From assembly GCA_021792405.1 (NCBI GenBank), contig JAJYUU010000023.1, positions 1 to 41,297 of the forward strand: a stretch of DNA of 41,297 nt, written 5' to 3'. The position numbers and the translations under genes are program-made. The DNA comes from Actinomycetes bacterium (GTDB lineage: Bacteria; Actinomycetota; Actinomycetes; Streptosporangiales; Streptosporangiaceae). The notes under the pieces are model-generated. The model saw nothing but the letters and a program-made list of their open reading frames with translations. It searched no databases and had not been told where the DNA came from. Below, piece by piece: positions 20,542 through 37,763 of this stretch. The stretch's first letter is position 1, and the number at the start of each line of letters is the position of its first letter.

Positions 20542-21417
20542 GTGGAGTATCCCGGAACCGTCGGCGAACTGACCGAGCGCTTGCGGCAAGGCGGCTACCT
20601 GGCCGACCGGGGCCTAGCCACGGCCCTGCTGGTGTCGCTGTCGCTGCACCGGCCAGTGCTGATCGAGGGCGAGGTCGGCGTCGGCAAGACCGAAGTCGCC
20701 AAGGTCCTTGCTGCCATCTTCGGCCGCAGGCTGATCAGGCTCCAGTGCTACGAGGGCATCGACACCAACCAGGCGCTGTACGAGTGGGACTACGCCCGCC
20801 AGATGTTGCAGATCCGGGCGCTGTCGGAGCACCAGGCGGCCGACGAGCGGGCGGTCGACCGGCTGTTCGGGCCGAAGTTCCTGCTCGAGCGGCCGCTGCT
20901 GGCGGCCGTACGGGCAGGTGATCAGGCCGTGCTGCTGATCGACGAGGTCGACCGGGCCGACGACGAGTTCGAGGCGTTCCTGCTCGAGGTGCTGTCCGAC
21001 TTCCAGATCAGCATTCCGGAAGTCGGCACCATCAGGGCAGAGTCCCCGCCTGCGGTAATCCTCACGTCCAACCGGACCAGGGAACTCCACGACGCGCTCC
21101 GCCGCCGCTGCCTGTATCACTGGATCGGCTATCCGTCGGCCGAGCGCGAAGTCGAGATCGTGATGGTCCGCGAGCCGGGCGCGGCCGAGCTGCTCACCCG
21201 TAAGGTCGTCGCCGCGGTGCACCGGCTGCGCGAGCTCGACCTGGTTAAGCCGCCCGGCGTGGCCGAGACCATCGACTGGGTGCGGACGCTCGGCTTCCTC
21301 GGCGAAAGCGACCTGACGGTACAGTCTGCCGGCGACACGCTGGGCGCGGTTATCAAGGACCGGGACGACCTGGACCTGGTGACGCAGAACCTGGCCGAGA
21401 TAGCCGCCGGTGGCTGA
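20542..21417 (+). CDS. coxD: MoxR-family AAA+ ATPase, CoxD-like (copy 1)
   Basis: CoxD-type MoxR ATPases act as chaperones in building the Cu-S-Mo site of aerobic CO dehydrogenase, working with the VWA protein CoxE. The 291-residue protein has Walker A GEVGVGKTE (about 43-51), Walker B AVLLIDEVDRADDEFEAFLLE, sensor 1 LTSNRTRELHDAL, and the arginine-rich RRRCLYHWIGYP. The start is GTG 20542, with a GAGGAGA sequence upstream. It overlaps a 16-bp tandem repeat at its 3' end and is followed by the VWA gene. A paralogue lies at 35591. The assignment to cox rests on the pairing with coxE and the nearby enzyme genes. Confidence 0.85.
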   Translation: MEYPGTVGELTERLRQGGYLADRGLATALLVSLSLHRPVLIEGEVGVGKTEVAKVLAAIFGRRLIRLQCYEGIDTNQALYEWDYARQMLQIRALSEHQAADERAVDRLFGPKFLLERPLLAAVRAGDQAVLLIDEVDRADDEFEAFLLEVLSDFQISIPEVGTIRAESPPAVILTSNRTRELHDALRRRCLYHWIGYPSAEREVEIVMVREPGAAELLTRKVVAAVHRLRELDLVKPPGVAETIDWVRTLGFLGESDLTVQSAGDTLGAVIKDRDDLDLVTQNLAEIAAGG

Positions 21418-21450
21418 GGATGCCGGTGGCTGAGGATGCCGGTGGCTGAG
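21406..21450. repeat. 16-bp repeat (2.8 copies) at the coxD1-coxE1 junction
   Basis: The unit gccggtggctgaggat is at 21406-21421 and 21422-21437, and its first 13 bases recur at 21438-21450. The unit contains the coxD1 stop (TGA) and GTG/ATG starts. Because 16 is not a multiple of three, each copy puts the next start in a new frame, and only the last copy leads into coxE1. Confidence 0.85.
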
Positions 21451-22569
21451 CACTCACCATTCGCCGCCGTGCTGGCCGGCTTCGCGGGTGAGCTGCGCGC
21501 CGCCGGGATCACCGTCGGGACCGGGGATGTGCTGACCTACGTTTCGGCGATGTCACCGCTCGACCCGTCCGACCTCGTGGACCTGTACTGGGCTGGCCGC
21601 ACAACGCTGGTCAGCCGGCGCGACGACATCGGTGTCTACGAGGAGGTGTTCCGCCGCTACTTCCTGGCCGAGGGCGCTCCGGCCGCGGCGCTGCTGACCC
21701 TGCGGGCCACCGTCTCGGCCGGCACCGAGGTGCCGATGGTCATGCCCGGTGCCGAGCCGGGCCCGGACAAGGACGAGGAGAAGCCGGCACTCGGCTGGAT
21801 GGCATCCGATGTCGATGCGCTGAAGCACCGGTCCTTCGCTACCTGCACGCCGGCCGAGCTCGCCGCGCTGCGCCGGATCATGGCCAGGATCGCTCTGACG
21901 CCGCCGCGGCGCCGGACCCGGCGCACCAGGGCCGCGGCAGCCGGTCGCTCGCCGGATGTCCGCAAGACCATCAGGACCGCCATGCGAAGCCACGGCGAGC
22001 CCGCAAACCTGTACTTCCGGCAGCGCACGATGCGCCTGCGCCCGCTCATCCTGATCCTCGACGTGTCCGGCTCGATGACCGACTACTCGCGCCATCTTCT
22101 TCAGTTTGCGCACTCCGCCAGGCAGGCTGCCGCGAAGGTAGAGGTGTTCTGCTTCGGGACCAGGCTGACCCGGATCACCAGGGCGCTGGCCCACCGGCGG
22201 CCAGACAGCGCACTGGAGCGAGCGGCCGCGACCGTCGTCGACTGGGATGGCGGCACCCGGATCGGGCAGTCACTCGATGAGTTCGTGCGGCGCTTCGGCC
22301 GCGGCGGCATGTGCCGCGGCGGCGTCGTGATCATCTGCTCCGACGGCCTGGACCGCGGCGATCCGGACCAGCTTGCCAGCGCGATGGAGCGACTGTCCCG
22401 GCTGTGCTACCGGCTCGTCTGGCTGAACCCGCACGTGGGTGACGATCCGCAGTTCCGGCCGAGCACACTGGGCATGATGGTGGCAGCGCCGCACATCGAC
22501 CTGCTGCTGTCCGGCCACGACCTGGCCAGCCTGGAGCAGCTAGCCAGGATGTTGCCGGCGCTGAGCTGA
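21436..22569 (+). CDS. coxE: VWA-domain protein, CoxE-like (copy 1)
   Basis: CoxE proteins carry a von Willebrand A domain and cooperate with CoxD in maturing the CO dehydrogenase active site. The 377-residue product has a metal-ion-dependent adhesion site DVSGSM at 209-214, followed by the threonine segment DWDGGTRIGQSLDEF and the aspartate in VIICSDGLDRGD, so the metal site looks complete. The N-terminal half is helical, with a basic Arg-rich hinge around 155-175. ATG 21436 and GTG 21442 are both possible starts; both lie in the third copy of the 16-bp repeat. Two small unknown genes follow. Confidence 0.87.
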   Translation: MPVAEHSPFAAVLAGFAGELRAAGITVGTGDVLTYVSAMSPLDPSDLVDLYWAGRTTLVSRRDDIGVYEEVFRRYFLAEGAPAAALLTLRATVSAGTEVPMVMPGAEPGPDKDEEKPALGWMASDVDALKHRSFATCTPAELAALRRIMARIALTPPRRRTRRTRAAAAGRSPDVRKTIRTAMRSHGEPANLYFRQRTMRLRPLILILDVSGSMTDYSRHLLQFAHSARQAAAKVEVFCFGTRLTRITRALAHRRPDSALERAAATVVDWDGGTRIGQSLDEFVRRFGRGGMCRGGVVIICSDGLDRGDPDQLASAMERLSRLCYRLVWLNPHVGDDPQFRPSTLGMMVAAPHIDLLLSGHDLASLEQLARMLPALS

Positions 22570-22622: not shown

Positions 22623-22907
22623 GTGAAGTGGAGTGTCGGAATCGAAGCCGAGGGCGACAAGATCCTCAGCCGCGAGCAGATAGTCGAGCTTGCCGACGCC
22701 GTCGCGGCCAGCGACGGCATCGCCACCGGGATCGGCACCAGCAGGTACGGCGTTCAGCTTGTGGTCGAAGCGGACACCAGGCAGGACGCGATCGGGACGG
22801 CGACTGAGCGCTTCATCGCTGCCGCCGCGAGCGCCGGACTGCCTCCGGCGCCTGTCGTGCGCACCCAGGCGGTCAGCGAGGCCGAGGAAGAATCCGGCTT
22901 CCGGTGA
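22623..22907 (+). CDS. Small conserved-looking protein of unknown function
   Basis: The 94-residue protein begins MKWSVGIEAEGDKILSREQ at GTG 22623. It reads like a small alpha/beta fold: two strand-like stretches (WSVGIEAE and YGVQLVVEAD), with helices between and after. I know of no function. It follows coxE1 by 53 bp, and its stop overlaps the next gene in GTGA, so the two are probably translated together. The acidic tail (SEAEEESGF) is probably flexible. Confidence 0.65.
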   Translation: MKWSVGIEAEGDKILSREQIVELADAVAASDGIATGIGTSRYGVQLVVEADTRQDAIGTATERFIAAAASAGLPPAPVVRTQAVSEAEEESGFR

Positions 22908-23347
22908 TCCGGCTCGGCTCGCTGGCAGGCTATCCGTTCGAGGGGCCGCGGCTGCTCGGCGGCTGGACACCGCCGGCCAGGGCCGCGGTCTACGCGATCC
23001 TGTACAAGCCCGACCCGGACGCCAGACCGGACCGGTACGCCGTCAGCTACGTCGGCCACTGCGACGATCTGTCGGCTGAGCGGTTCCCGTTCCAGCATCC
23101 TCGGGCAGCCTGCTGGATCCGGCGGGCCGGCTCTAAGTGGAAGGTCTATGTCTGCAGCTACGAGGTGCCGGGCGGCACGAGCTCGCATCGCGAGCAGATC
23201 GCCCGTGAGCTGACCGCGATCTACCACCCAAGCTGCAACGACCAGCACTACGACAACGCCTGGGAAGAACACTGGATCGGCGAGTACTCAGCGCCGACTA
23301 CCGGCCCGGTCGCGCGCCGCGGCCCGGACCAGTCCGGCCACCGGTAG
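22904..23347 (+). CDS. Unknown protein, possible GIY-YIG-like fold
   Basis: The 147-residue protein begins at GTG 22904, overlapping the previous stop. The stretch AAVYAILYKP followed by YAVSYVGHCDDLSAERFP has the spacing and shape of a GIY-YIG nuclease core (VYA, then YVG), with a later helix EQIARELTAIYHPSCN carrying a Glu. GIY is not exact and the catalytic Arg and Glu cannot be verified by eye, so this is a suggestion only. It ends 3 bp from the convergent membrane-protein operon. Its link to cox is by position. Confidence 0.55.
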   Translation: MIRLGSLAGYPFEGPRLLGGWTPPARAAVYAILYKPDPDARPDRYAVSYVGHCDDLSAERFPFQHPRAACWIRRAGSKWKVYVCSYEVPGGTSSHREQIARELTAIYHPSCNDQHYDNAWEEHWIGEYSAPTTGPVARRGPDQSGHR

Positions 23348-23350
23348 GTG

Positions 23351-23710
23351 TCAGCGCTGCGGCGCGTAACCCACCGCGTCGTGCAGCCGGGACCGCCGCG
23401 TCCCCGAAGCCGGGCGGGCAACCGCCGCCGCTGGCTCGGCGGGACGGGGGGTCACGTCCGCCACAATCTCCTCGGCCATCCCGTACAGCAGCGGCAGTGC
23501 GCCCGCCACCACGCCGCCGGTCTGGTTGATGTGCTCGACGCCGGGCCCGATCTGCCGGGCGTGCCCGACGATGGTGCGCACGAGTCCAGCGCAGTCCTCC
23601 AGGTTGCCGGCGATCCTGGTGAGCAGCGAGCCGGCCCAGTAGAGGTAGAACGCGAGCCCGGCGATCAGTGCGACGATGGCGACTACGGTCAGGACGACCA
23701 GCGTGGTCAT
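23351..23710 (-). CDS. Small single-pass membrane protein (fifth of five)
   Basis: The 119-residue protein has one hydrophobic segment at about residues 4-28 (LVVLTVVAIVALIAGLAFYLYW), then a helical stretch with heptad-like spacing (LLTRIAGNLEDCAGLVRTI). The tail is Pro/Ala-rich, basic and probably disordered. The ATG overlaps the preceding gene's stop in ATGA. It is the last gene of the leftward cox copy 1 operon. No family is recognised; the shape resembles its four upstream neighbours. Confidence 0.7.
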   Translation of the reverse strand: MTTLVVLTVVAIVALIAGLAFYLYWAGSLLTRIAGNLEDCAGLVRTIVGHARQIGPGVEHINQTGGVVAGALPLLYGMAEEIVADVTPRPAEPAAAVARPASGTRRSRLHDAVGYAPQR

Positions 23711-24009
23711 GACTTCACCTTTCCGAGCACGCGGCCGAGGAACAGATGGTGCTTCAGGCCCTCGGCCAGAACTGCCTCAACGCCGTCAGCGACTTGCGGG
23801 ACCAGCGCCGCGTTGGCGGTGTTCGCGGTCGCCGCTCCGAGCGTGTCGCGCACCTCGACCACCCGCCGGTCGATGACCTTGATGAAGTAGATGAGCAGGC
23901 TCAGCAGCGCCGCCACCGCGAGCACCACGACGAATCCCAGAATGATCGCGACTAGCCATGCCGTGTGCTCAGACGAGTTCATGGCTGCGGCGATCGCCAG
24001 AGTGTGCAT
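23707..24009 (-). CDS. Small single-pass membrane protein (fourth of five)
   Basis: The 100-residue protein starts at ATG 24009 behind GGAGGG. One membrane segment spans about residues 18-43 (WLVAIILGFVVVLAVAALLSLLIYF). The charged linker KVIDRRVVEVRDTLGAAT follows, then a second amphipathic helix ending LGRVLGKVKS. The stop overlaps the next ATG. The function is unknown; the architecture matches the neighbours (short N terminus, one membrane helix, amphipathic cytoplasmic-type tail). Confidence 0.7.
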   Translation of the reverse strand: MHTLAIAAAMNSSEHTAWLVAIILGFVVVLAVAALLSLLIYFIKVIDRRVVEVRDTLGAATANTANAALVPQVADGVEAVLAEGLKHHLFLGRVLGKVKS

Positions 24010-24011
24010 CG

Positions 24012-24299
24012 CTACCCTCCGAGCCTGGCGCGGCCGCGCTGCAGCCCGCCGATGATGATGGTGGCGTGCTCGATCGTGGTGCGCAGCGCTCCCAGTGGCG
24101 CTGTGTTGCGCACGGCGTCCCCGAGTGCGTCGTTGATCTTCGGGGCTTCTCTCCCGATCGAGTAAGCCAGCCGCAGGATCGGCACGACGAGCGCCACCAC
24201 GACTGCCACGATGACGATGCCGATGACGTAGCCGAGTACCCAGCCGAATCGGCTGAAGTGCCCGGCCCCGCTAGCGAGGTAAACGACGTGTCCGGTCAT
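24012..24299 (-). CDS. Small single-pass membrane protein (third of five)
   Basis: The 95-residue protein starts at ATG 24299 (GTG 24302 is an alternative). It has a membrane segment at about residues 19-43 (WVLGYVIGIVIVAVVVALVVPIL). The tail contains REAPKINDALGDAVRNTAPLG and ends in a basic RGRARLGG. It lies 2 bp from the next gene and 6 bp from the previous one, so co-translation is likely. No known family is recognised. Confidence 0.68.
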   Translation of the reverse strand: MTGHVVYLASGAGHFSRFGWVLGYVIGIVIVAVVVALVVPILRLAYSIGREAPKINDALGDAVRNTAPLGALRTTIEHATIIIGGLQRGRARLGG

Positions 24300-24305
24300 C
24301 ACTGA

Positions 24306-24533
24306 TCAGACCGTCTCGCAGAAGTCCCTGACGGGCTTCAGGCTCGCGTTGACCGACGTCAGCCGGTCTGGCACGGTGCTGGTCAGCTGCGCGACCGCCT
24401 GAACCCCGCCGGTCGTGGCGACCAGGTTCGCCCGGATCGCGCTGAGGTGGACGATCACCCGCAGCAATCCGACAGCGGTAATCGCGATGATCAGCGCCGC
24501 GATGATCAAAGTCACCCAGGCTGCTGCTGGCAT
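24306..24533 (-). CDS. Small single-pass membrane protein (second of five)
   Basis: The 75-residue protein starts at ATG 24533 behind AGGAGAG. The membrane segment covers residues 5-26 (AWVTLIIAALIIAITAVGLL). The tail has regularly spaced leucines and valines (VIVHLSAIRANLVATTGGVQ) and ends VRDFCETV. The function is unknown. The tail pattern resembles DUF948-like helices, but too weakly to name a family. Confidence 0.68.
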   Translation of the reverse strand: MPAAAWVTLIIAALIIAITAVGLLRVIVHLSAIRANLVATTGGVQAVAQLTSTVPDRLTSVNASLKPVRDFCETV

Positions 24534-24543
24534 GATCGCTCTC

Positions 24544-24795
24544 CTAACCCAGAAGCTTGGCGACAGAGCCCGCGTAGCGGACGGCGCCGACGGATATTTC
24601 CCTCACCGTGGTGTCGGTCGTGGCCAGGGCGCCGGGCACGCCAGTCAGTTCACCGACCAGCGCTACGCCGCCGGACAGGATGTCGTCGGTCGCGTGCCTG
24701 ATGCGCTCGAGAGCGGCCAGCACCCGGTTGAGCAGGTAGATGACAACAGAAAGCACCACGACCAGCACCGCGTTGCCGATCCACCACAAGACCAT
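24544..24795 (-). CDS. Small single-pass membrane protein (first of five)
   Basis: The 83-residue protein starts at ATG 24795 behind a strong GAGGAGGA sequence. The membrane segment covers residues 4-22 (WWIGNAVLVVVLSVVIYLL), followed by LNRVLAALERIRHATDDILS and a second mildly hydrophobic helix. It comes 37 bp after coxG on the same strand, which ties the whole five-gene group to the CO dehydrogenase operon. The function is unknown. Confidence 0.7.
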   Translation of the reverse strand: MVLWWIGNAVLVVVLSVVIYLLNRVLAALERIRHATDDILSGGVALVGELTGVPGALATTDTTVREISVGAVRYAGSVAKLLG

Positions 24796-24832: not shown

Positions 24833-25423
24833 TCAGTACGACGCGGGCTGGTAGGGCAGGAAGAACCGGCGGAACACCCGGGCCAGCGCCATCCGCGCTG
24901 CCCGCAGGCCCAGGGTGAAGCCGCTCGCCGGACTTGCCGTGGCCGCGGCGAGTTGCTCGGCGGACTCACCCCGCTCGATCCGGTTGATCCGGTCGGCCAT
25001 GTTGACCGAGAAGTCGTGCATGAGCACGGCGCTGACATCGGAGATCATGCCCCGGCCGTATTGCGCGGCGGCACCGGACAGTTGCAGATCCTGGGTGACA
25101 TCCACCCGCGTGCCGCGTCCGATCGCGGTCAGCGCGGCGGTCACGATCATGCTGGCCTGACCGCGGCCCTTTTCATCAGCGCCCGCCGCATGCACGACCA
25201 CTCGCCTGGCCGCCTCGTCCCGTTCGGTGATGCCGGCGGTGCCGGCGAACCGCAGCCGGACCGGGCCCATCCTGATCGCCACCGTGCCCTTGTATTTCTC
25301 CCCGCCGAGATCCTCGGTCAGCTCAGCCCCGGGCAGGCAGGTGGCGACCTGCGGGATGTTGCCGAAGAACTGCCATACCTTGTCGACCGGCTCGGCGACC
25401 TCGAAGTCGTTCTTGATCAGCAT
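24833..25423 (-). CDS. coxG: CoxG-type SRPBCC protein
   Basis: CoxG proteins have an SRPBCC (START-like) hydrophobic pocket and link CO dehydrogenase to the membrane; in actinobacteria they have been reported to help move quinone to the enzyme. ATG 25423 overlaps the preceding stop (ATGCTGA) and gives 196 residues. The family start MLIKNDFEVAEPVDKVWQFF is followed by VATCLPGAELTE and YKGTVAIRMGPVRLRFAGTA. After the domain (about residue 150) comes a linker and an amphipathic C-terminal segment (LGLRAARMALARVFRRFFLP) that could bind the membrane. The only coxG in the locus, it probably serves both enzymes. Confidence 0.9.
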   Translation of the reverse strand: MLIKNDFEVAEPVDKVWQFFGNIPQVATCLPGAELTEDLGGEKYKGTVAIRMGPVRLRFAGTAGITERDEAARRVVVHAAGADEKGRGQASMIVTAALTAIGRGTRVDVTQDLQLSGAAAQYGRGMISDVSAVLMHDFSVNMADRINRIERGESAEQLAAATASPASGFTLGLRAARMALARVFRRFFLPYQPASY

Positions 25424-26355
25424 CGGGCCTCGCCCTTCAGGTAAGCGGCTGGATCCTTCTCGAACGCCTGACGGCAACCGCCGCAGCAGAAGTAATAGGT
25501 GACACCCTCGTGCTGCAGCGACAAGGTGCCCGGCCCGGCGGTCACGGCCATGCCGCACACCGGGTCGATGCTCTCCGTGTGCGGAACGGCCGTGGCACCG
25601 GCCAGCGCCCCGGCCAGCGCCCCGGCCGCGCGCAACTGCACCAGCTCGGCCAGGATCGCCACGGCGATCTCCGGATGCGTGGTACTGCCCAGGTCGAGAC
25701 CTGCTGGTACCCGGACCCGGTCCAGTTCCGTCCGCGGCAGGCCGCGGTCCGCCAGGTAACCAAGCACCGCCGCGCCCCGCTTCCGTGAGCCGACCAGGCC
25801 AAGGTAGGCCGGACGGGCGGCCACCGCGCGCTCCAGCACGCCCTCGTCGTCATGGCCCTGGGTGGCGACGACGACGAGCGACTGCTCGTCGACGTCGGCA
25901 GCGGCGAAGTCTGCGGCGTCGACCAGCTCAGCGTGCCAGCCCAGGGTCCGGGCCAGGTCTGCCAGCGTTTGCGCCATCGGGGACCGTCCCACCACCACCA
26001 GGCGGGGAACGGGCATTACCGGCTCGATGTAGACCTCCAGCGCGCCTTCGCTCTGGCAGGAGATCGGGACAACGGCAACTCCTTCTGGCGCGGCGCCGCC
26101 GAACTGGCCGGCGCTGCCAAGCAGCAGCAACTCGGCCCTGCCGGTGGCGATGACTCCCCTGGCAGCGCGGATCACCGCAGGCTCCGCGCACGCCCCGCCG
26201 ATCCAGCCGTGTAGTTCGCCGTCGGCGGTGATGATCGCCCGCGAGCCTTGCTGGCTCGACGACGGGCCCTGGCGCCAGACGACCGTCGCGAGCGCGAACG
26301 CCTCGCCGCGCTGCGCTAGCTCAGCGGCGTGCGTTATGACTTCCCAGCCGTTCAT
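25417..26355 (-). CDS. XdhC/CoxI-family maturation protein fused to a YHS domain
   Basis: XdhC/CoxF/CoxI proteins bind molybdenum cofactor and deliver it, sulfurated, to large subunits of the xanthine oxidase family. The 312-residue protein starts at ATG 26355. The N-terminal XdhC domain has ATVVWRQGPSSSQQGSRAII and GWIGGACAEPAVIRAAR. A Rossmann domain follows (RLVVVGRSPMAQTLADLA, then VVATQGHDDEGVLERAV and YLGLVGSRKRG). The last 50 or so residues form a YHS domain (DPVCGMAVTAG, YYFCCGGCRQAFEKDP). YHS cysteines in other proteins bind copper or other soft metals, which is notable because CO dehydrogenase needs both Mo and Cu. Confidence 0.88.
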   Translation of the reverse strand: MNGWEVITHAAELAQRGEAFALATVVWRQGPSSSQQGSRAIITADGELHGWIGGACAEPAVIRAARGVIATGRAELLLLGSAGQFGGAAPEGVAVVPISCQSEGALEVYIEPVMPVPRLVVVGRSPMAQTLADLARTLGWHAELVDAADFAAADVDEQSLVVVATQGHDDEGVLERAVAARPAYLGLVGSRKRGAAVLGYLADRGLPRTELDRVRVPAGLDLGSTTHPEIAVAILAELVQLRAAGALAGALAGATAVPHTESIDPVCGMAVTAGPGTLSLQHEGVTYYFCCGGCRQAFEKDPAAYLKGEARC

Positions 26356-26368
26356 CGCCCCTGCTCCG

Positions 26369-28759
26369 CTAGTCGTCCGAGCGCACCGGCGGCGCACCCG
26401 AGACGTCCCGGCGATAGGTGATGGCCTCCCAGACCCGGTCCGGAAGCAGCGGCATGTCGACGTTCCGGACGCCGGTGGCGGAGATCGCGTCCATGACCGC
26501 GTTCACGAAAGCCGCCGGACCGCCGACGGCCGCGCACTCCCCGATGCCCTTGGCGCCGATCGGGTGATGCGGGCACGGGGTGACGACCTCGCTGTGCAAC
26601 TCGAAGCCGGGCGTCTCCCAGGCGGTCGGCAGCAGGTAGTCCATGTAGTTCGAACCGACGCAGTTGCCGTCGGCGTCGAAGGTGATGAACTGCATGTTGG
26701 ACATCGCGTAGGCCTCGGTGAGGCCGCCCATGATCTGGCCTTCCACGATCATCGGGTTAATCCGGATGCCGCAGTCGTCGACCGCCACCATGTTCAGCAC
26801 GTCCCAGACCCCGGTGTCCGGGTCGACCTCGACGGTGACGATGTAGACGGCGAACGGCCAGGTCAGGTTCGGCGGATCGTAGTAGGCCGTGGCATCAAGG
26901 CCCGGCTCCATGCCGTCGGGCATGTTGGCGTACGCGGCGATCGCGCACTCCTGGATCGTGACCCCGCGATCCGGGGCACTGCGGACGTAGAACCGGCCGA
27001 GCTCCCACTCGACGTCCTCCTCCGATACCTCGAGGAGGTGCGCGGCCAGCTTCCTGGCCTTGGCCCTGATCTTCCGCGCCACCATGGCCACGGCGGCGCC
27101 GGCCACCGGCGTGCTGCGGGAGGCGTACGTGCCCATCCCGAACGGCGCGGTGTCGGTGTCGCCCTCCTCGACCACGATGTCGTCAGCGGGGATGCCAAGC
27201 TCGTGTGCGACGATCTGGGCCCACGTCGTCTCGTGGCCCTGGCCCTGGCCGCGGGCGCCGGTGCGGACGATGGCCTTGCCGGTCATGTGCACCTTGAGCT
27301 CGGCCGAGTCGAACATCTTGATGCCGAGGATGTCGTACTCCCGGCTGTTGCCCGCGCCGAGCGGCTCGGTCATCGTGGAGATGCCGAGCCCGAGCAGCCG
27401 CCCGCGCTCGCGGGCCTGCGCCTGCTGCTGACGGAAGTTGTCGTAGTCGATCGCCTTCAGCCCGACCTCGAGGCACTTGGCGTACTGGCCGGAGTCGGTG
27501 AGGAAGCCGAACGGGGTCCGGTGCGGGAACGCATCGTCGGGCACGAAGTTCATCCGGCGGAACTCCGCCTGGTCCATGCCGAGATCGGCGGCGGCGGCCT
27601 GCACCATCCGCTCCTGGAAGAACATCGCCTCGGTGACCCGGAACGAGCACCGGTAAGCCACGCCGCCGGGCGCCTTGTTGCTGTAGGTACCCCTGGCGGT
27701 CAGGTGGGCCACCGGGACGTCGTACGCGGCGAAGGCCGAGTGCATCAAGCCGATCTTGAACTTGCTCGGCTGCGCGTCGGAGAAGAACGCGCCGTGGTCG
27801 GCGTCGGTGTGCATCCGGACGGCCAGGATCTTGCCGTCCCGGCGCAGCGCCATCTCGCCCTTCAGGTACACGTCCCGCGCGAACCCGGTCGAGATCAGGT
27901 TGCCTGACTTGTCCTCGATCCACTTGACCGGGCGCTCCAGCAGGATCGACGCCAGGATGGAGCAGACGTAGCCGGGGTACACCGGGACCTTGTTGCCGAA
28001 GCCGCCGCCGATGTCCGGGGAGATGATCCGGATCATGTGCTCGGGAAGTTCGGCCACCATCGCCACCGCTGCCCGGATGATGTGGGGCGCCTGGGTGGTC
28101 ATGTAGACGGTCAGCTTGGACGTCGCGCGGTTGAAGTCCGCGATCGAGCCGCAGCACTCGATCGGCGACGGGTGCGACCGCGGATAGTGCAACTCGAGCT
28201 TGGATACCAGGTCGGCGGACGCGAAAGCCCGGTCGGTGCCGTCCCGGTCGCCGACTTCCCAGTCGTAGATCACGTTGTCCGGCTGGTTGTCCTTGTCATC
28301 GCGGATGACCGGCGCGCCGTCGGCTACCGCCTGCGCGGGATTCACGATGACCGGCAGCGGCTCGTAGTCGACGACGATCGCCTCGCACGCGTCCTTGGCG
28401 ATGTACGGGTCGTCCGCGATGACGCACGCGACCTCCTGGCCCTGGAATCGCACCTTGTCGGTGGCCAGCACGGCCTGGGTGTCGTAGGACAGCGTCGGCA
28501 TCCAGGCGAGGTTGCGGGTGGCCATCATCTCGCCGGTGAGCACCAGGTGCACGCCGGGAATGTCCCAGGCCTTGCTGGCGTCGATCGACTTGATCCGGGC
28601 GTGCGCAAGCGGGCTGCGCAGGATTTCCATGTGCAGCATGCCGGGCAGCACGATGTCATCGGTGTAGTTGCCCTTACCACGGATGAACCGGCTGTCCTCG
28701 ACCCGCTTGCGGCTCGCGCCGAGCCCGCCGATCTTGATTTCGTCTACTGCCTGCGACAT
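26369..28759 (-). CDS. coxL: Aerobic CO dehydrogenase large subunit, form I (copy 1)
   Basis: CoxL holds the Mo-Cu active site that oxidises CO to CO2. The 796-residue protein carries the form I loop AYRCSFR at residues 368-374; Cys371 corresponds to the copper-sulfur ligand. This separates it from form II and xanthine dehydrogenases (AYRGAGR-type). Cofactor-binding segments such as PDIGGGFGNKVPVYPG, GQGQGHETTWAQ and GDTDTAPFGMGTYASR are intact. The active-site glutamate is in GAKGIGECAAVGG near the C terminus. It begins 34 bp after coxS and ends 13 bp before the xdhC-like gene, in the order coxM-coxS-coxL. Confidence 0.95.
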   Translation of the reverse strand: MSQAVDEIKIGGLGASRKRVEDSRFIRGKGNYTDDIVLPGMLHMEILRSPLAHARIKSIDASKAWDIPGVHLVLTGEMMATRNLAWMPTLSYDTQAVLATDKVRFQGQEVACVIADDPYIAKDACEAIVVDYEPLPVIVNPAQAVADGAPVIRDDKDNQPDNVIYDWEVGDRDGTDRAFASADLVSKLELHYPRSHPSPIECCGSIADFNRATSKLTVYMTTQAPHIIRAAVAMVAELPEHMIRIISPDIGGGFGNKVPVYPGYVCSILASILLERPVKWIEDKSGNLISTGFARDVYLKGEMALRRDGKILAVRMHTDADHGAFFSDAQPSKFKIGLMHSAFAAYDVPVAHLTARGTYSNKAPGGVAYRCSFRVTEAMFFQERMVQAAAADLGMDQAEFRRMNFVPDDAFPHRTPFGFLTDSGQYAKCLEVGLKAIDYDNFRQQQAQARERGRLLGLGISTMTEPLGAGNSREYDILGIKMFDSAELKVHMTGKAIVRTGARGQGQGHETTWAQIVAHELGIPADDIVVEEGDTDTAPFGMGTYASRSTPVAGAAVAMVARKIRAKARKLAAHLLEVSEEDVEWELGRFYVRSAPDRGVTIQECAIAAYANMPDGMEPGLDATAYYDPPNLTWPFAVYIVTVEVDPDTGVWDVLNMVAVDDCGIRINPMIVEGQIMGGLTEAYAMSNMQFITFDADGNCVGSNYMDYLLPTAWETPGFELHSEVVTPCPHHPIGAKGIGECAAVGGPAAFVNAVMDAISATGVRNVDMPLLPDRVWEAITYRRDVSGAPPVRSDD

Positions 28760-28793: not shown

Positions 28794-29327
28794 TCAGTCC
28801 GCCGGTGCCTGCGCGCGCAGCTTCGCCGCCGCCCAGAGCACCGACTTGACGATGTTCTGGTAACCGGTGCAGCGGCACAGGTTCCCCGACAGCGCCCAGC
28901 GGACCTCTTCCTCGGTCGGGTCCGGGTTGCGGTCCAGCAGCGCCTTGGCCGCCAGCATCATGCCGGGCGTGCAGAACCCGCACTGCAGGCCGTGCTCTTC
29001 CCTGAAGCCCTCCTGCAGCGGGTGCAGTTCGCTGGCCGAGGCAAGGCCCTCGACGGTCTGGATCTCGTGGCCGTCCACCTGCACGGCCAGCATCGTGCAG
29101 GACTTGACCGCCTGGCCGTCGACCAGAACCGTGCAGGCACCGCAGTTCGTCGTGTCACAGCCGGTATGGGTGCCAGTGAGCCGCAGGCCCTGCCGGATCA
29201 GGTGCGCGAGCAGCAGCCGCGGCTCGACCTCGGCGATCTTCTTCTCGCCGTTCACGGTGAACTTGATCCGGCGCATCGGCACCTGCGCCGCGGCCTCGTC
29301 CTCGCGATCGGAGTAGACGATTGTCAT
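28794..29327 (-). CDS. coxS: CO dehydrogenase small Fe-S subunit (copy 1)
   Basis: CoxS carries two [2Fe-2S] clusters that pass electrons from the Mo-Cu site to FAD. ATG 29327 gives 177 residues, with a 20-residue acidic N-terminal addition before the plant-type ferredoxin domain. First cluster cysteines lie in [12 protein letters not shown] and the later KSCTM. The second, helical domain has [11 protein letters not shown] and LCRCTGYQN. It starts 2 bp after the coxM stop, so translation is coupled. Confidence 0.95.
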
Positions 29328-29329
29328 GA

Positions 29330-30208
29330 TCAGGCCGCCCTTTCCGCCGGCTCGGCGCTGCATCTGGTGAGAATGCGCTCGACGAACGTCGCCACCATGT
29401 GCCGCTTGTACTCGGCGCTGCCCCGGTGGTCGGTGCGCGGGCGGGCCGCCTCGGCCGCCGCCGAAGCAGCCGCCGCTATCGACTCCGCGGTCAGCGAGTG
29501 TCCGGTCAGCGCCGCCGCTGCCGCGGAGGCCGCAATGGTCGAGGCGCCGACTCCGGTCAGCGCGATTCCCGCTCGCCGCACGACCTCACCCGCGGTCTCC
29601 AGCGAGACTGCGACGCCGACGGTGGCGAAGTCGCCGACGCGCCGCTCCAGCTTGAGGTACCCGCCGCGGCGCTCACCCTGGGCAGCCGGGATGACCGCCT
29701 CGACGGCGATCTCGTCGGGCGCCAGCAGGTTCTGGAACGGCCCGGTGACGAAGTCGGTCATCGGGATCGATCGGCGGCCGTCCGGCCCCTCCGCCACCAC
29801 GGAGCCGCCGAGCGACAGCACCACCGAGGCCCAGTCGCCCTGCGGGTCGGCGTGACACAGCGACCCGACCAGGGTCCCCCGGTTGCGCACGATCGGGTCG
29901 GCGATCAACGGCGCGGCTGCGGCCATCGTGGGCTGCGTCCCCGCCAGCAGCGCAGAGCGCTCGAGGTCGGCGTGGCGGCAGAGCGCGCCGATCCGCAGCG
30001 TGCCGTCCGGGTCGGCGCGATGGTAGCTGAGGCCGGGCAGGTTGTTGATGTCCACGACCAGTTCGGGCGCGGCGAACCGGAGCTTCATCAGCGGGACGAG
30101 GCTCTGACCGCCGGCCAGCACCTTGGCGTTGTCGCCGCCTGCGGCAAGCAGCCGGATCGCCTCGGCGACGGTATGCGGCGCCTCGTACCGGAACCGCGAC
30201 GGGTACAT
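29330..30208 (-). CDS. coxM: CO dehydrogenase medium FAD subunit (copy 1)
   Basis: CoxM binds FAD and is the exit point of electrons to the quinone pool. The 292-residue protein has the FAD-binding loops AGGQS (32-36) and TLVGS (112-116), spaced as in characterised CoxM, and the C-terminal CO dehydrogenase flavoprotein domain ([18 protein letters not shown], then [11 protein letters not shown]). The start ATG 30208 has GGAGG seven bases upstream. It is the first enzyme gene of the leftward operon; a small unknown gene precedes it. Confidence 0.95.
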
Positions 30209-31692: not shown

Positions 31693-32564
31693 GTGCAAGT
31701 CCCCGCGCAGGTCGAGTACGAACGGGCAGGCAGCGTCGAGCACGCGCTCACGCTGCTAGCCAGGTATGGCCCTGCGGCGCGGGTGCTGGCCGGCGGGCAC
31801 AGCTTGATACCCATGATGAAGCTGCGCCTGGTACAGCCGGAGGTGCTGATAGACATCAACGGGATCACCGACCTCTGCTATATCAACCTAACCGGTGCGC
31901 AGCTGCGGATCGGCGCGCTTACCCGGCATGCGCAACTGCTGGAGTCATCGGTCGCGGGCGAGCACTTCGCGATCCTGCACGACGCGGAGCGGGTCATTGC
32001 AGACCCGATCGTGCGCAACTGGGGGACGGTCGGCGGGTCGCTGTGCCAGGCCGACCCGTCCGAGGACCTGTCGGCCGCGTTCGCCGCGATGAAAGGCACG
32101 ATGATCATCCATGGCCCGGACGGCAGCCGCGAGGTTTCCGCGCGCGAGTTCCACGCCGGCCCGTACGAGACGGTGGTGGGGCCGTCGGAGCTGCTGACCG
32201 AGATCAGGCTGCCGATCAGGCCGGGCGGCGGCAGCGGGTACCGCAAGGTGTCGCGCCGGGCCGGAGACTGGCCGGTCGGGGCCGCCGGGGCAGCGGTCTG
32301 GCTGGACGGCGACGTCATTACCGACGCCGGCATCGGGCTGACCGCCGTCGGAGCAACCCACTTCGCCGCCGCCGAGGCGGAGGACTTCCTGCGCGGCCGG
32401 ACCGCCACGCCCCAGACGCTGGCCAGGGCCGGCGAGATAGCCGCCGAGAACTGCCGGCCGGTCAGCGATCAGCGCGGCCCGGCGGACTACAAGCGTCACC
32501 TGGCGTGCGAACTCACCACCAGGGTGCTGGGGGTCGCCGTCGCGCGGGCCCGCGGGCTGATGGC

Positions 32565-32568
<4 letters not shown>
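31693..32568 (+). CDS. coxM: CO dehydrogenase medium FAD subunit (copy 2)
   Basis: This flavoprotein subunit parallels the copy at 29330. GTG 31693 is chosen because AGGGAGG lies 8 bases upstream and it matches the length of copy 1; an ATG at 31672 is possible. The 291-residue product has FAD loops AGGHS (about 32-36) and TVGGS (about 111), then SGYRKVSRRAGDWPVGAAGA and RGPADYKRHLACEL. Its stop overlaps coxS2 (ATGA). It heads the rightward operon coxM2-coxS2-coxL2-coxD2-coxE2. Confidence 0.94.
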
Positions 32569-33028
<460 letters not shown>

Positions 33029-33032
<4 letters not shown>

Positions 33033-35410
33033 CCGGTCCCGGCGTAGCAGGGCAGGAGACCGGGGCGTACGGGGCAATCCCGCGAAAGGAAGACGCCCGG
33101 TTCGTCCGGGGTCAGGGAACGTTCGTCGACGACATCAGCCTGCCCGGCATGCTGCACGGGGCGATCCTGCGCAGCCCGCTGGCGCATGCACGCATCATCT
33201 CGGTCGATGCCAGCGCTGCCCTGGCCCACCCGAAGGTCGAGGCGGTGCTGACCGGAGCCGACCTGGCCGGCCGCGGCCTCGCCTGGATGCCGACGCTGTC
33301 GGCGGACGTGCAGGCGGTGCTGGCCACCGACAAGGTGCGATTCCAGGGCCAGGAGGTCGCGTTCGTGGTCGCGCAGGACCGTTATGCGGCCAGGGACGCG
33401 CTGGAGCTCATCGCGGTGGAGTACGAGCCACTGCCGCCCCTCATCGACGCCCGGACGGCCCTGGCGCAGGACGCGCCGCTGGTCCGGGATGACGTGCCTG
33501 GCCGGGCCGACAATCGCGTCTTCGACTGGAACGCTGGCGACAAGACTGCGACCGATGCGGTGTTCGCAACTGCTGAGGTGAGGGTCGGCTGCGATATGGT
33601 CTATCCCCGTTCCCACCCTGCTCCGCTGGAGACTTGCGGAATCGTCGCCGCTTCCGATGCCGTCACCGGACGGCTCACCGTCTGGTCCACCTCGCAGGCA
33701 CCGCACGCGCACCGCACCTTGTACTCGGTGATCACCGGACTGCCGGAGCACAAGATCCGGATCGTGTCTCCGGACATCGGCGGCGGGTTCGGTAGCAAAG
33801 TGCCGGTCTATCCCGGCTACCTGTGCGCGATCGTCGCGTCGATGATCACCGGGCGGCCGGTGAAATGGGTAGAGGACCGCTCGGAGAACCTCATGTCGAC
33901 CGCGTTCGCTCGCGACTACCACATGCACGGCGAGATCGCGGCGACCGCGGACGGCCGCATTCTCGGCGTGCGCGCCCGGGTGCTTGCCGACCACGGGGCG
34001 TTCAATGCGACCGCGCAGCCGGCCAAGTACCCGGCCGGCTTCTTTCACATCTTCACCGGCTCCTACGACCTGCAGGCCGCATTCTGCGAGGTCACCGGTG
34101 TCTACACGAACAAGGCGCCGGGCGGCGTGGCCTATTCGTGCTCGTTCCGCGTCACCGAGGCCGTCTACCTGGTCGAACGGCTCGTCGACCTGCTGGCGCG
34201 CGAGCTTGGGATGGATCCGGCACAGCTGCGGATGCGCAACCTGCTGCGACCGGAGCAGTTTCCCTATACCTGCCCGACCGGCTGGCAGTACGACTCGGGC
34301 GACTATCCACGGGCTTTCGCGCTCGCGCTGGACCTGGCCGGCTACCAGGGACTGCGGCGTGAGCAGGCGGAACGGCGCGCCCGCGGCGAGTACATGGGCA
34401 TCGGGATCAGCTTCTTCACCGAGGGCGTCGGCGCCGGGCCGCGGGCGCACATGGACATCCTCGGACTGGGCATGGCTGATGGCGCTGACCTGCGGGTGCA
34501 CCCGACCGGGAAGGTCGTGCTGGCGATCTCGGTGCAGACCCAGGGGCAGGGTCACGAGACCACCTTCGCCCAGCTCGTAGCCCACGAGCTGGGGCTGACT
34601 CCGGACGACGTGGAGGTCGTGCACGGTGACACCGACCGGACCCCGTTCGGCCTCGGCACCTACGGTTCCAGGTCCACTCCGGTGTCAGGCGCGGCCGCGG
34701 TGCTGGCGGCGCGGAAGGTGCGTGACCGGGCCCGGCTGGTGGCTGCGGCGACGCTGGAGCTGTCCCCGGACGACCTGGAGTGGCTGGACGGCAAATGGCG
34801 GGTGCGCGGTGATCCGGACCGGGGTGCGGGGATTGCCGAGATCGCCATGGCCGCGCACTCCTCGCTCGAGCTGCCCGACGGGGTGGAAGGTCACCTGGAC
34901 GCATCCGCCGTGTACAACCCGCCGAACCTGACCTTCCCATTCGGGGCCTACATCTGCGTCACCGACGTGGACCCGGCGACCGGCGAGGTCACGGTGCGCC
35001 GTTTCATCGCGGTCGACGACTGCGGCGTGCGGATCAACCCGATGATCGTCGAGGGTCAGGTGCACCGCGGCCTGGCGGACGGCATCGGCATGGCGCTGAT
35101 GCAGGCGATTGCCTTCGACGAGAACGGCAACTGCCTCGGCGGGTCGTTCATGGACTACCTGCTGCCCACCGCGCTGGAGTGCCCGTCGCCCGAGCTGGGC
35201 GCGACCGTGACGCCATCCCCGCATCATCCGGTCGGCGCCAAGGGCATCGGCGAGTCCGCCACGGTCGGATCGCCGCCAGCCGTGGTGAACTCGGTCGTGG
35301 ACGCACTGGCTCCGTTCGGCGTCCGGCATGCGGATATGCCGCTCACACCGGCTAATGTGTGGCGCGCGATCCAGGGCCGTCCGGTGCGGCCTGACTTGGC
35401 TGTGAGCTGA
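33029..35410 (+). CDS. coxL: Form I-type CO dehydrogenase large subunit, variant loop (copy 2)
   Basis: The 793-residue protein aligns with copy 1 along its length, including PDIGGGFGSKVPVYPG, QGQGHETTFAQ, GDTDRTPFGLGTYGSR and the glutamate in GAKGIGESATVGS. The active-site loop reads AYSCSFR at residues 368-374: the copper-ligand-equivalent Cys371 is kept, but the Arg370 seen in copy 1 is Ser. It could be a functional CO dehydrogenase with altered kinetics or an enzyme for a related substrate. The gene overlaps coxS2 by ATGA and is followed by coxD2 after 180 bp. Confidence 0.92.
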
Positions 35411-35590
35411 GCCGGGAATCTTCGCGGCGGCTGGAGAGCTAACAGACGCGTAAGAGCGGTGCGGTCCTTGATCAATGTTGGTTTGGTGTTGCTATAGCGA
35501 CACTAGATTCACATCGATCATGATGCGCGATGGCGGGACCGTCCGCGGCGTCGCTACCAGCGACGCTGATTTCTCATAGATGATGGTGAA
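35411..35590. promoter_or_regulatory. coxL2-coxD2 intergenic region
   Basis: This 180-bp gap is locally AT-rich. It holds ttgatc (35468-35473) and tatagc (35493-35498) with a 19-bp spacer, a weak promoter candidate. It may allow coxD2-coxE2 to be expressed apart from coxMSL2. Confidence 0.25.
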
Positions 35591-36493
35591 ATGAGCGATA
35601 TCGCCGAGCTACTGCCGGACGTACCGACCTTGCTGGCCGCGCTTGACGGCGTCAGCTACCTGGCGGACGAGCCGCTCGGTACGGCGCTGTTCCTCGCCGC
35701 CCGGATGGGGCAGCCGATCCTGCTGGAGGGCGAGCCGGGCGTCGGGAAGACCGAGGCCGCCAAGGCGCTGGCCGATGTGCTGGACACCCCGTTGATCCGG
35801 CTGCAGTGCTATGAAGGGCTGACCTCCGCTGAGGCGCTGTACGAATGGAACTACCCGCGTCAGCTGCTGGCCATCCGCCTGGCCGAGGCCAGGGGCGAGG
35901 CGCCCCGCGAGGCAGACCTGTTCAGCGACGACTACCTGCTGGAGCGCCCGTTGCTGGCCGCGCTTGGCCATCCCGGTCCGCGCCCGGCGGTGCTGCTGAT
36001 CGACGAGGTCGACCGCGGCGACGACGAGTTCGAGGCCTTCCTGTTCGAGCTGCTCGCTGAGTCCGCGGTCACGATCCCCGAGCTCGGGACACGGCGGGCT
36101 GCCTATCCGCCTGTCGTGGTGCTGACCTCGAACCGCACCAGAGACTTGCACGACGCGCTGAAGCGACGTTGCCTCTATCACTGGATTGACTACCCCGACG
36201 TCGGCCGCGTCGCGGCCATCATCCGGCGCCGGGTCCCTGCGGCGGGCGAACGGCTGGCGGCTCAGGTCGCGGCTGGCGTGCACCGGTTGCGGGGCCTTGA
36301 CCTCGCCAAGCCGCCCGGCGTCGCGGAGGCCATCAGCTGGGCGAACGCTTTGCAGGTACTGGGAGCAGCCGAACTCGACGCGAACGCCGCCAGGCAGACC
36401 ATGGGAACGGTGCTCAAGTACGCCGAGGACTTGCAGGCCGCCAGGGCAGCCGATGTCGCTGCCGTCGTCGGCCACGGCTCCGGCGATGGCTGA
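35591..36493 (+). CDS. coxD: MoxR-family AAA+ ATPase, CoxD-like (copy 2)
   Basis: The 300-residue protein is a paralogue of the one at 20542, with Walker A GEPGVGKTE (about 47-55), Walker B AVLLIDEVDRGDDEFEAFLFE, and LTSNRTRDLHDALKRRCLYHW. It probably acts as an ATP-driven chaperone in maturing the second CO dehydrogenase. The ATG at 35591 lies after an AT-rich gap. Its stop overlaps the next gene by 8 bases (ATGGCTGA), so CoxD2 and CoxE2 are translationally coupled. Confidence 0.87.
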   Translation: MSDIAELLPDVPTLLAALDGVSYLADEPLGTALFLAARMGQPILLEGEPGVGKTEAAKALADVLDTPLIRLQCYEGLTSAEALYEWNYPRQLLAIRLAEARGEAPREADLFSDDYLLERPLLAALGHPGPRPAVLLIDEVDRGDDEFEAFLFELLAESAVTIPELGTRRAAYPPVVVLTSNRTRDLHDALKRRCLYHWIDYPDVGRVAAIIRRRVPAAGERLAAQVAAGVHRLRGLDLAKPPGVAEAISWANALQVLGAAELDANAARQTMGTVLKYAEDLQAARAADVAAVVGHGSGDG

Positions 36494-37763
36494 CGAGCGC
36501 AACGAGACAGCACCGGCGGGCGGTCCGGGCGACGGGGACCTGGCCGAGGTGGCGGCGCGATTTGGCGCCGCCCTGCGCCTGGCCGGGCTCCCGGTCGGCC
36601 CCGGCCGCACCGAGCGGTTCGCGGCCGCGGTCACCCTGGTCCGGCCAGCCAACAGGCGAGAACTGTTCAACTGCGCGCTGGCGACTCTCGTCGCGGCTAA
36701 GGATCAGGCCGACACCCTCACGACGGTCTTCACCAGCGTTTTCGGCTCACTGGACGCGGCCGGCGACCTGACTGCCCTGGATCTGCCCGGGCACGGGCAG
36801 CCGCAGTCAGTTCTCATCTCTGAAGCGGCCGCGCTGGCGCGCCTGCATGGTGACACGGTCACGCTGAGCCCGGATGGCCAGGCCGAAGGCGACGACGATC
36901 AGGCCGGCCAGGTAGAGCGGCCCTATCTGGGCAGCCCGGTGGAGCGGCTCGCCGGAACTGACTTCGCCGAGCTGTCCCCCGCCGAGCTGGCCCTGCTGGC
37001 ATCGGCGATGCACGAGATCACGCTGGCGGTGCCGACCCGCCGGTCCAGGCGGCGCAGGCCACGGCCCGGCGGGAGCCGCACCGACATGCGGGCGACCTTG
37101 CGGCAGGCCAGGCGTACCGGCGGACACGCCTTCAAGCTCATCGGAGAGGTCCCGGCCAAGCGACCCCGGCGGCTTGTCGTGCTGTGCGACATCTCCGGGT
37201 CGATGGAGCCTTATGCCAGGGCCATGATCCAACTGCTGTACTGCGCGGCGGGGGGCGCCGATGCGGAGGTGTTCACCTTCGCGACCAGGCTGACGCGGCT
37301 GACCGCCGCGCTTGCCCGGTCGACGCCGGCGATCGCGCTCGCCCGAGCCGCCCTGGCCGCGCCGGACTGGCACGGCGGCACTCAGATCGGCAGGGCCCTC
37401 AAGGAGTTCAACGACCGTTTCGGCCGGCGTGGCATGGCGCGCGGTGCTGTCGTGCTGATCATCTCAGACGGCTGGGATACCGGGGATCCGGAGGTAGTCC
37501 GGCGGGAGATGCAGCGGCTGTCGCTGGTCGCGTTCCGGGTGGTCTGGATGAACCCGCGCACTAAGAGCACGGCCTACCAGCCGCTGGCTGGCGGCATGGC
37601 CGCCGCCTGGCCCTACTGCGACAGCGTGGTGAGCGGCCATTCACTGCAGGCGATGGGCCAGCTAACCGCCGCGCTGGCGGATCAAGTGCGGCGCCGGCCG
37701 GAAATCCGCGCGGTGGATCCGGTCGAGTCGCTCGCCCGCGCGACGGGGTCGCGCGGGCGCTAG
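36486..37763 (+). CDS. coxE: VWA-domain protein, CoxE-like (copy 2)
   Basis: The 425-residue protein starts at ATG 36486, inside the end of coxD2. The metal site DISGSM is at residues 235-240, with the later threonine in DWHGGTQIGRAL and aspartate in VLIISDGWDTGD, so the adhesion-type site looks intact. An Arg-rich linker (RRSRRRRPRPGG) precedes the domain. It is longer than copy 1 by an acidic middle insertion (EGDDDQAGQVE). Its stop shares the palindrome CTAG with the stop of the convergent next gene. It probably acts with CoxD2 in cofactor insertion. Confidence 0.88.
   Translation: MADERNETAPAGGPGDGDLAEVAARFGAALRLAGLPVGPGRTERFAAAVTLVRPANRRELFNCALATLVAAKDQADTLTTVFTSVFGSLDAAGDLTALDLPGHGQPQSVLISEAAALARLHGDTVTLSPDGQAEGDDDQAGQVERPYLGSPVERLAGTDFAELSPAELALLASAMHEITLAVPTRRSRRRRPRPGGSRTDMRATLRQARRTGGHAFKLIGEVPAKRPRRLVVLCDISGSMEPYARAMIQLLYCAAGGADAEVFTFATRLTRLTAALARSTPAIALARAALAAPDWHGGTQIGRALKEFNDRFGRRGMARGAVVLIISDGWDTGDPEVVRREMQRLSLVAFRVVWMNPRTKSTAYQPLAGGMAAAWPYCDSVVSGHSLQAMGQLTAALADQVRRRPEIRAVDPVESLARATGSRGR

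Follow-up and report, generated by a model that had tools for sequence, protein, structure and literature searches.

The window, that is, the whole stretch of 41,297 nucleotides analysed here (contig JAJYUU010000023.1 of assembly GCA_021792405.1, Streptosporangiaceae), carries on its minus strand an operon with the gene order coxM-coxS-coxL-xdhC-coxG-m1-m2-m3-m4-m5, in which m1 to m5 denote five small open reading frames (Table 1). Its CoxL, a member of the lineage termed clade X below, has both features by which form I CO dehydrogenase was recognised, the AYxCSFR loop and a TIGR02416 score above the cut-off (1101.7 bits against 991.15). The XdhC/CoxI-type protein is fused to a YHS domain, for which metal handling in assembly of the MoCu cluster is a guess. 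Facing the operon convergently from the other side are u147, u94, a CoxE-like VWA gene and a MoxR-like ATPase gene. The structural model of u147 (mean pLDDT 74) gave 1ycz as its best Foldseek match (E 6e-3); the resulting GIY-YIG-like domain is odd company for a gas enzyme and is conserved beside this cox clade. No Pfam or NCBIfam match was obtained for u94. A second form I cox cluster (coxM, coxS, coxL, MoxR-like ATPase and VWA genes) adjoins the first; it is without a membrane module of its own, and its CoxL scores 1284.5 bits against TIGR02416.

Table 1. Features of the cox region in the window.
Feature	Position	Strand	Description
MoxR/CoxD-like AAA ATPase	20542..21417	+	
CoxE-like VWA protein	21436..22569	+	
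u94	22623..22907	+	94 aa; convergent, conserved; just upstream of u147
u147	22904..23347	+	convergent; GIY-YIG-like fold by model
m5	23351..23710	-	119 aa; TM helix, conserved GALPLLYGMAE, C-terminal RRSRL extension; type B
m4	23707..24009	-	100 aa; TM helix and tail; type A; tail end EGLxHHLFLGRVLxKV
m3	24012..24302	-	96 aa; TM helix and tail; type A, paralogue of m4
m2	24306..24533	-	75 aa; TM helix and tail; type B
m1	24544..24795	-	83 aa; N-terminal TM helix and tail; type A
CoxG	24833..25423	-	Pfam COXG
XdhC/CoxI-type maturation factor	25417..26361	-	C-terminal YHS domain
CoxL	26369..28759	-	clade X, form I; AYRCSFR loop; TIGR02416 score 1101.7 bits
CoxS	28794..29363	-	[2Fe-2S] subunit
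CoxM	29330..30208	-	FAD subunit
Second form I cox cluster	31702-37763	+	coxM, coxS, coxL, MoxR-like ATPase, VWA

The first-pass annotation had described five genes of 75-119 residues packed after coxG with overlaps or gaps of 2-37 bp, and this proved accurate: all five reading frames exist on the minus strand, and the spacing from coxG through m5 is 37, 10, 3 and 2 bp followed by a 4-bp overlap. The start codon of m3 is GTG, with an ATG one codon downstream. Each protein has a single strong hydrophobic segment near its N-terminus (best 19-residue Kyte-Doolittle mean, with cox-family medians of 2.67-3.30), in agreement with the one membrane helix per protein that had been claimed. The claim that the tails are amphipathic holds in part. 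When the window tails were compared with shuffled versions, their best helical hydrophobic moment stood out clearly for m3 (reached in 61 of 2000 shuffles) and m5 (76 of 2000); those of m1 (324/2000), m2 (405/2000) and m4 (1001/2000) were not clearly above the shuffled tails, so that amphipathicity of all five is unsupported.

The profile search for known families that the annotation had proposed left m1 to m5 below the curated cut-offs of Pfam and NCBIfam. Two candidates for m4, OAD_gamma (oxaloacetate decarboxylase gamma; 18.5 bits, cut-off 27) and VirB8 (17.6 bits, cut-off 23.2), were rejected on the Pfam thresholds. Searching PDB sequences with the m1 profile gave a best E of 0.74; the best match of the m4 profile, the soluble MurE ligase 2wtz (E 0.0044), was taken for chance, and Foldseek returned zero PDB matches for the m4 model. 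The HucM chains in the PDB set were matched by neither the m1 nor the m4 profile, the two that were searched.

To place the module in its own lineage, the window CoxL was scanned against a species-genome collection, and the best 80 of 226 confirmed stretches were kept (83-98% identical over their best segments). In all 59 of these 80 loci that have at least 3.1 kb after coxL, coxG is followed by m1-m2-m3-m4-m5 in that order, and CoxG lies between coxL and m1 in every one; all five genes are still visible before the contig end in 4 of the 21 shorter loci. Since all five are kept in order in 59 of 59 clade loci, the arrangement is far beyond chance, and m1 to m5 constitute a real, conserved five-part membrane module. 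The 59 loci include those of the isolates Trebonia kvetii, Amycolatopsis saalfeldensis, Nocardioides soli, two Kineosporia and Frankia nepalensis, and the module is therefore no assembly artefact. In Nocardioides soli DSM 105498 and Nocardioides sp. Root1257, two culturable carriers of the module, the locus also contains a second coxL. Among the loci with 10 kb downstream, matches were found to u147 in 37 of 39, to u94 in 33 of 39 and to CoxE in 36 of 39. One contig labelled as an Acidobacteria MAG (L092) holds the full clade X cluster, which may reflect inter-phylum transfer or a binning error. No stretch matching the CoxL patterns was found in a viral collection. A single-sequence search with m1 in 150 genomes of the same order retrieved the window's own copy alone, and of the 30 genomes of the order with coxL above the cut-off, only the window's own has a copy below 1190 bits.

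Profiles reached further. Across 346 genomes of the phylum, m1 and m4 each matched in 34, the window's own included; one m4 match (G447, 23 bits), in a genome without m1, was treated as a false positive. A form I coxL or a NiFe-hydrogenase large subunit is present in 32 of the 34 genomes with m1 and in 168 of the 312 without it (Fisher p 1.6e-6), the two exceptions being G360, whose locus L157 has a hydrogenase small subunit, and G402, which is 81% complete. We then tallied the nearest such gene within 12 kb, using 21 coxL and 42 NiFe places; hits in the window itself and four secondary m4 matches were set aside, which kept 37 of 38 m1 and 37 of 42 m4 places. The nearest gene was a NiFe large subunit for 14 m1 and 19 m4 places, a form I coxL for 10 and 9, and neither for 13 and 9; several of the last lie on short contigs or adjoin hydS, NifU, hyp or coxG genes. 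Of 40 distant stretches fetched, which leave out one distant m1 place (G273:C188), 35 contain a structural or accessory gene of cox or hydrogenase (accessory only in 8) and five contain none (L147, L149, L174, L175 and L176). In L142, for example, the neighbours are the NiFe-hydrogenase small and large subunits, then a NifU-Rieske protein, HypF, HypC and HypD, and more generally m1-m2 frequently lie beside maturation genes. CoxG was matched among the distant loci only in L152, L153, L154 and L156, all of them cox loci.

A module specific to cox was thus rejected, distant homologues having been found beside hydrogenases. The annotation had held that homologues mainly without cox genes would make the link positional only. 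Such homologues do exist (14 of the 37 m1 places nearest a NiFe large subunit, 13 near neither gene), and the link nevertheless goes beyond position, because the alternative neighbour is itself a respiratory gas enzyme. All nine genomes with a form I coxL below 1120 bits, a line set after the scores were seen, have m1; the other 40 genomes with form I coxL above the cut-off, none below 1120 bits, have m1 in nine, of which six are in a hydrogenase context, so that the module is missing from the majority of form I CO dehydrogenases. Two second coxL copies below 1120 bits (L226 and L228, in G241 and G338) have no module adjoining, and it is present elsewhere in those genomes. Eight profiles gave no match at E 0.01 in four plasmid loci whose hydrogenases are related to that of L142 (39.6-43.2% identity of the large subunits), and the module is therefore no constant companion of hydrogenases. 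In six loci (L148, L151, L152, L153, L155 and L159) up to three extra, longer m-like single-TM proteins of about 190-270 residues accompany or follow the five. A protein of about 1600 residues is encoded directly before m3-m4-m5 in L147 (3812-8623) and L149 (3887-8740), that of L149 with an N-terminal DUF255 thioredoxin-like domain.

The correspondence between the two contexts extends to single families and to gene order. With profiles made from cox-linked members only, m1, m2, m3 and m4 were recognised separately in hydrogenase loci. These profiles also recognised m5 in 15 runs, all of them other than the group 1l-like kind described next. In hydrogenase-context runs m1 precedes m2 in 20 of 20 with both, m3 precedes m4 in 22 of 22 and m5 follows m4 in 15 of 15, counts in which runs from one family are not independent; run L143 has an inserted m1. 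The order m3-m4-m5-m1-m2, adjoining hydrogenase subunit genes, is found in seven loci of a single bacterial family (L142, L161-L166), and in five of them (L142, L161, L163, L164 and L166) the five genes stand between both subunits; L162 and L165 show one subunit. This recalls the group 1l hydrogenase, which has five TM genes, HylTM1-5, between its small and large subunit genes (PMC9561532, citing Ortiz et al. 2021 PNAS). Judged by the published description, the L142-type loci match the group 1l arrangement, and they are here called 1l-like. The third gene of these 1l-like loci was recognised as m5 by the combined profile only, at 32-47 bits.

When the cox and hydrogenase families were compared by hhalign, the result was strictly diagonal, with probabilities of 99.1-99.7% and scores of 98-139; the best off-diagonal pair reached 97.0% and a score of 62, and reversed-alignment controls stayed at or below 38.5% and 27.8. 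Hydrogenase-linked members had been assigned by their best cox profile (at least 20 bits, limited length), which favours the diagonal in this 5x5 comparison; gene order and the third gene of the 1l-like loci are independent of that assignment. Within the hydrogenase set m1, m3 and m4 were joined at 97-99% and m2 and m5 at 99%, the m2-m3 cross-type signal being weaker at 75-85%. A separate hhalign comparison paired m3 with m4 at 97%. By these profile comparisons the five fall mainly into two homologous types, A (m1, m3, m4) and B (m2, m5); given the m2-m3 signal, both types may share a common origin. The one repeated and diverged architecture proposed initially, a single family of five, is accordingly replaced by two types. 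CoxG showed no profile similarity to m1 to m5.

In the literature, the statement that no described system has this composition is corrected by HylTM1-5 (PMC9561532). Like these, m1 to m5 are encoded as one group of five short proteins, each predicted to have a TM helix, and in loci of the described arrangement each of the five TM genes has an m1-m5 counterpart. The window set differs in following coxG of a molybdenum-copper CO dehydrogenase instead of lying between hydrogenase subunits, in its order (m1-m5 instead of m3-m4-m5-m1-m2) and in the m4 and m5 tail ends. As far as arrangement and homology can tell, the window module is a relative of HylTM1-5, for which the description in PMC9561532 names no function. 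The same source describes in group 1m hydrogenase clusters two single-TM proteins of 82-92 residues, which by description resemble hydrogenase-adjacent m1 and m2 in size and TM helix. A functional analogy is offered by HucM of the group 2a hydrogenase Huc, a helical stalk by which a soluble gas enzyme receives menaquinone out of the membrane (PMC10017518); HucM, however, is described there as one protein in four copies, peripheral to the membrane. CoxG shares the operon with m1 to m5. It has been reported as a menaquinone-binding protein and is a proposed quinone carrier of CO dehydrogenase that would draw the enzyme to the membrane (PMC13240472, PMC4240915); unlike m1 to m5, it is an SRPBCC-type protein. 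Among the papers listed by a literature search that lacked most subscription papers and all preprints, none was found to tie HylTM-like proteins to CO dehydrogenase, and use of the module by CO dehydrogenase thus appears undescribed in the literature searched.

A CoxL tree was built with FastTree from 74 rows thinned from 121 coxL, every third locus of L038-L117 having been left out beforehand; its two outgroup rows, one of them a partial form I sequence, do not fall on one side of a branch. Clade X (local support 100) comprises 18 rows, of which 16 carry the module and 2 are undecided. Another form I clade, clade Y (local support 100), contains L154, L156 and L219, all with the module. Many module-less coxL separate the two clades, 26 rows being labelled 'no'; the window's second coxL was given this label by hand, and the 'module yes' labels of L063, L066 and L099, outside both clades, belong to second coxL copies at most 9 kb from a clade X set. 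L154 and L156 keep the hydrogenase order m3-m4-m5-m1-m2, placed between coxG and coxM in L156 and beside coxM in L154. The cox-module link is loose in the clade Y locus of G249 (L160/L219), where several kb separate the module and the cox genes, the last gene of the module scores nearly alike as m5 (23 bits) and m2 (22 bits), and the contig also carries a hydrogenase. Taken together, the tree suggests at least two uptakes of the module by CO dehydrogenase; the transfer may have run in either direction.

In 320 of 326 cox members more Lys and Arg follow the helix than precede it, with family averages of 1.3-3.7 in the 15 residues after it and 0-0.33 before, an uneven comparison as few residues precede the helix (which starts at residue 3-21); the companion set labelled 'hyd' comprises all distant members, cox-linked ones included. 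By the positive-inside rule, these basic residues predict an N-out/C-in topology with cytoplasmic tails. CO dehydrogenase is reported as mainly cytoplasmic in M. smegmatis (PMC6794299). The AlphaFold model of m4 (mean pLDDT 84, pTM 0.41) has helices at 12-67 and 70-99, of 56 and 30 residues.

The tail ends vary with context. In m4 the end EGLxHHLFLxRV occurs in clade X and in five relatives (L147, L149, L152, L153 and L176), of which only L152 and L153 are cox-adjacent, the others being grouped by their tail; of the genomes behind these unlinked sets, G316 has a related coxL elsewhere, G273 has coxL fragments, and none was found in G413 (64% complete). All three clade Y rows end in QDxYMNAL, 10 of 14 other hydrogenase rows have His-Asp in the tail end, and the 1l-like loci differ again. 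The m5 ends are also context-dependent, the RRSRL extension being confined to clade X members, in an alignment that had one clade Y m5 row and no 1l-like m5. Common to the contexts are the m4 columns W18 at the helix start, G25, V28, V32 and L36 in the helix, and N63-T64 in mid-tail. Ends that change with the enzyme, on an otherwise shared m4, are the pattern to be expected from docking of cognate enzymes by the ends and a common membrane role of the remainder. Not one Cys or His column is common to all contexts. The idea of a heme or metal site at the m4 His pair was rejected, the pair being confined to clade X and the five relatives. A single His near the m4 end is found in clade X, the 1l-like loci and most other hydrogenase forms, and in none of the three clade Y rows; it was therefore not taken for a general ligand but may have a ligand role. 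The CoxG C-terminus varies as well, in small numbers: a hydrophobic helix in four (L182, L184, L188 and L189) of the five loci examined from the canonical coxL side, a basic, amphipathic-looking stretch in clade X and equally in its module-free neighbours, and no tail in clade Y L154 and L156; a module-free tailless CoxG also exists (L201).

Because five distinct families stay together, largely in order, with two form I CO dehydrogenase clades and with [NiFe]-hydrogenases, we lean on balance towards reading m1 to m5 as five subunits of one membrane adaptor used by different soluble respiratory gas oxidoreductases. The five helices would bundle in the membrane, the helical tails would form a short stalk on the cytoplasmic side, and the variable m4 and m5 ends would grip the cognate enzyme. 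Stalk or bundle would thereby bring the enzyme to the membrane, for CO dehydrogenase jointly with quinone-binding CoxG, and its electrons would then reduce menaquinone. Docking of a cytoplasmic enzyme by the tails is the best-supported putative function, and quinone delivery by the module is plausible. Since the contexts share no conserved Cys or His position, the five themselves probably carry no electrons, a view against which a ligand role of the His near the m4 end would count. The membrane platform first suggested, docking the enzyme and passing electrons to quinone, thus remains the best reading and is strengthened by the same families beside [NiFe]-hydrogenases; its specificity for CO dehydrogenase and CoxG as an obligatory partner (present in four distant cox loci only) do not stand. 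Against the adaptor count the unsupported amphipathicity of three tails, the five stretches without an enzyme gene, the many form I CO dehydrogenases without the module, and the adjacency of m1-m2 to maturation genes. More tentatively, the adaptor may be a hetero-oligomeric quinone conduit of three type A and two type B subunits, lifting menaquinone to the docked enzyme. Two CO dehydrogenase lineages and high-affinity hydrogenases would then each have acquired this transferable part on their own, with re-tuning to each enzyme chiefly in the m4 and m5 ends.

We regard as rather unlikely that the five are a pure membrane tether or scaffold that holds the enzyme, quinone arriving via CoxG for CO dehydrogenase or via other subunits for hydrogenase. 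The absence of a common Cys/His column, CoxG in all 59 clade X loci and tail ends that vary with the enzyme would all suit a tether, but it has no obvious need for five distinct families in fixed order. That m1 to m5 are maturation or membrane-insertion factors, for cluster assembly or metal delivery (copper/molybdenum for CO dehydrogenase, nickel/iron-sulphur for hydrogenase), is improbable: m1-m2 do frequently adjoin moxR/coxE, NifU-Rieske or hyp genes, and a His lies near the m4 end in all contexts except clade Y, but the cofactors of the two enzymes are unrelated, the 1l-like loci place the genes between structural subunits, and the missing common Cys/His column argues against metal handling as well. 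Small membrane genes of unrelated function hitch-hiking with these operons, as the five enzyme-free stretches of 40 and one family with m3-m4-m5 apart from m1-m2 and from cox would allow, are very hard to reconcile with the same five families in conserved order beside two unrelated enzyme classes and in two separate form I coxL clades.

With the window module, HylTM1-5 gains a second context, CO dehydrogenase. How electrons from the soluble enzymes that scavenge atmospheric CO and H2 reach the respiratory membrane is a live question, and one module with two unrelated enzymes separates what is common in its function, on the membrane and quinone side, from what is enzyme-specific, in the tail ends, both being testable in culturable strains. 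The distribution of m1 to m5 suggests that unrelated air-gas enzymes may feed respiration by way of a common docking part in the membrane.
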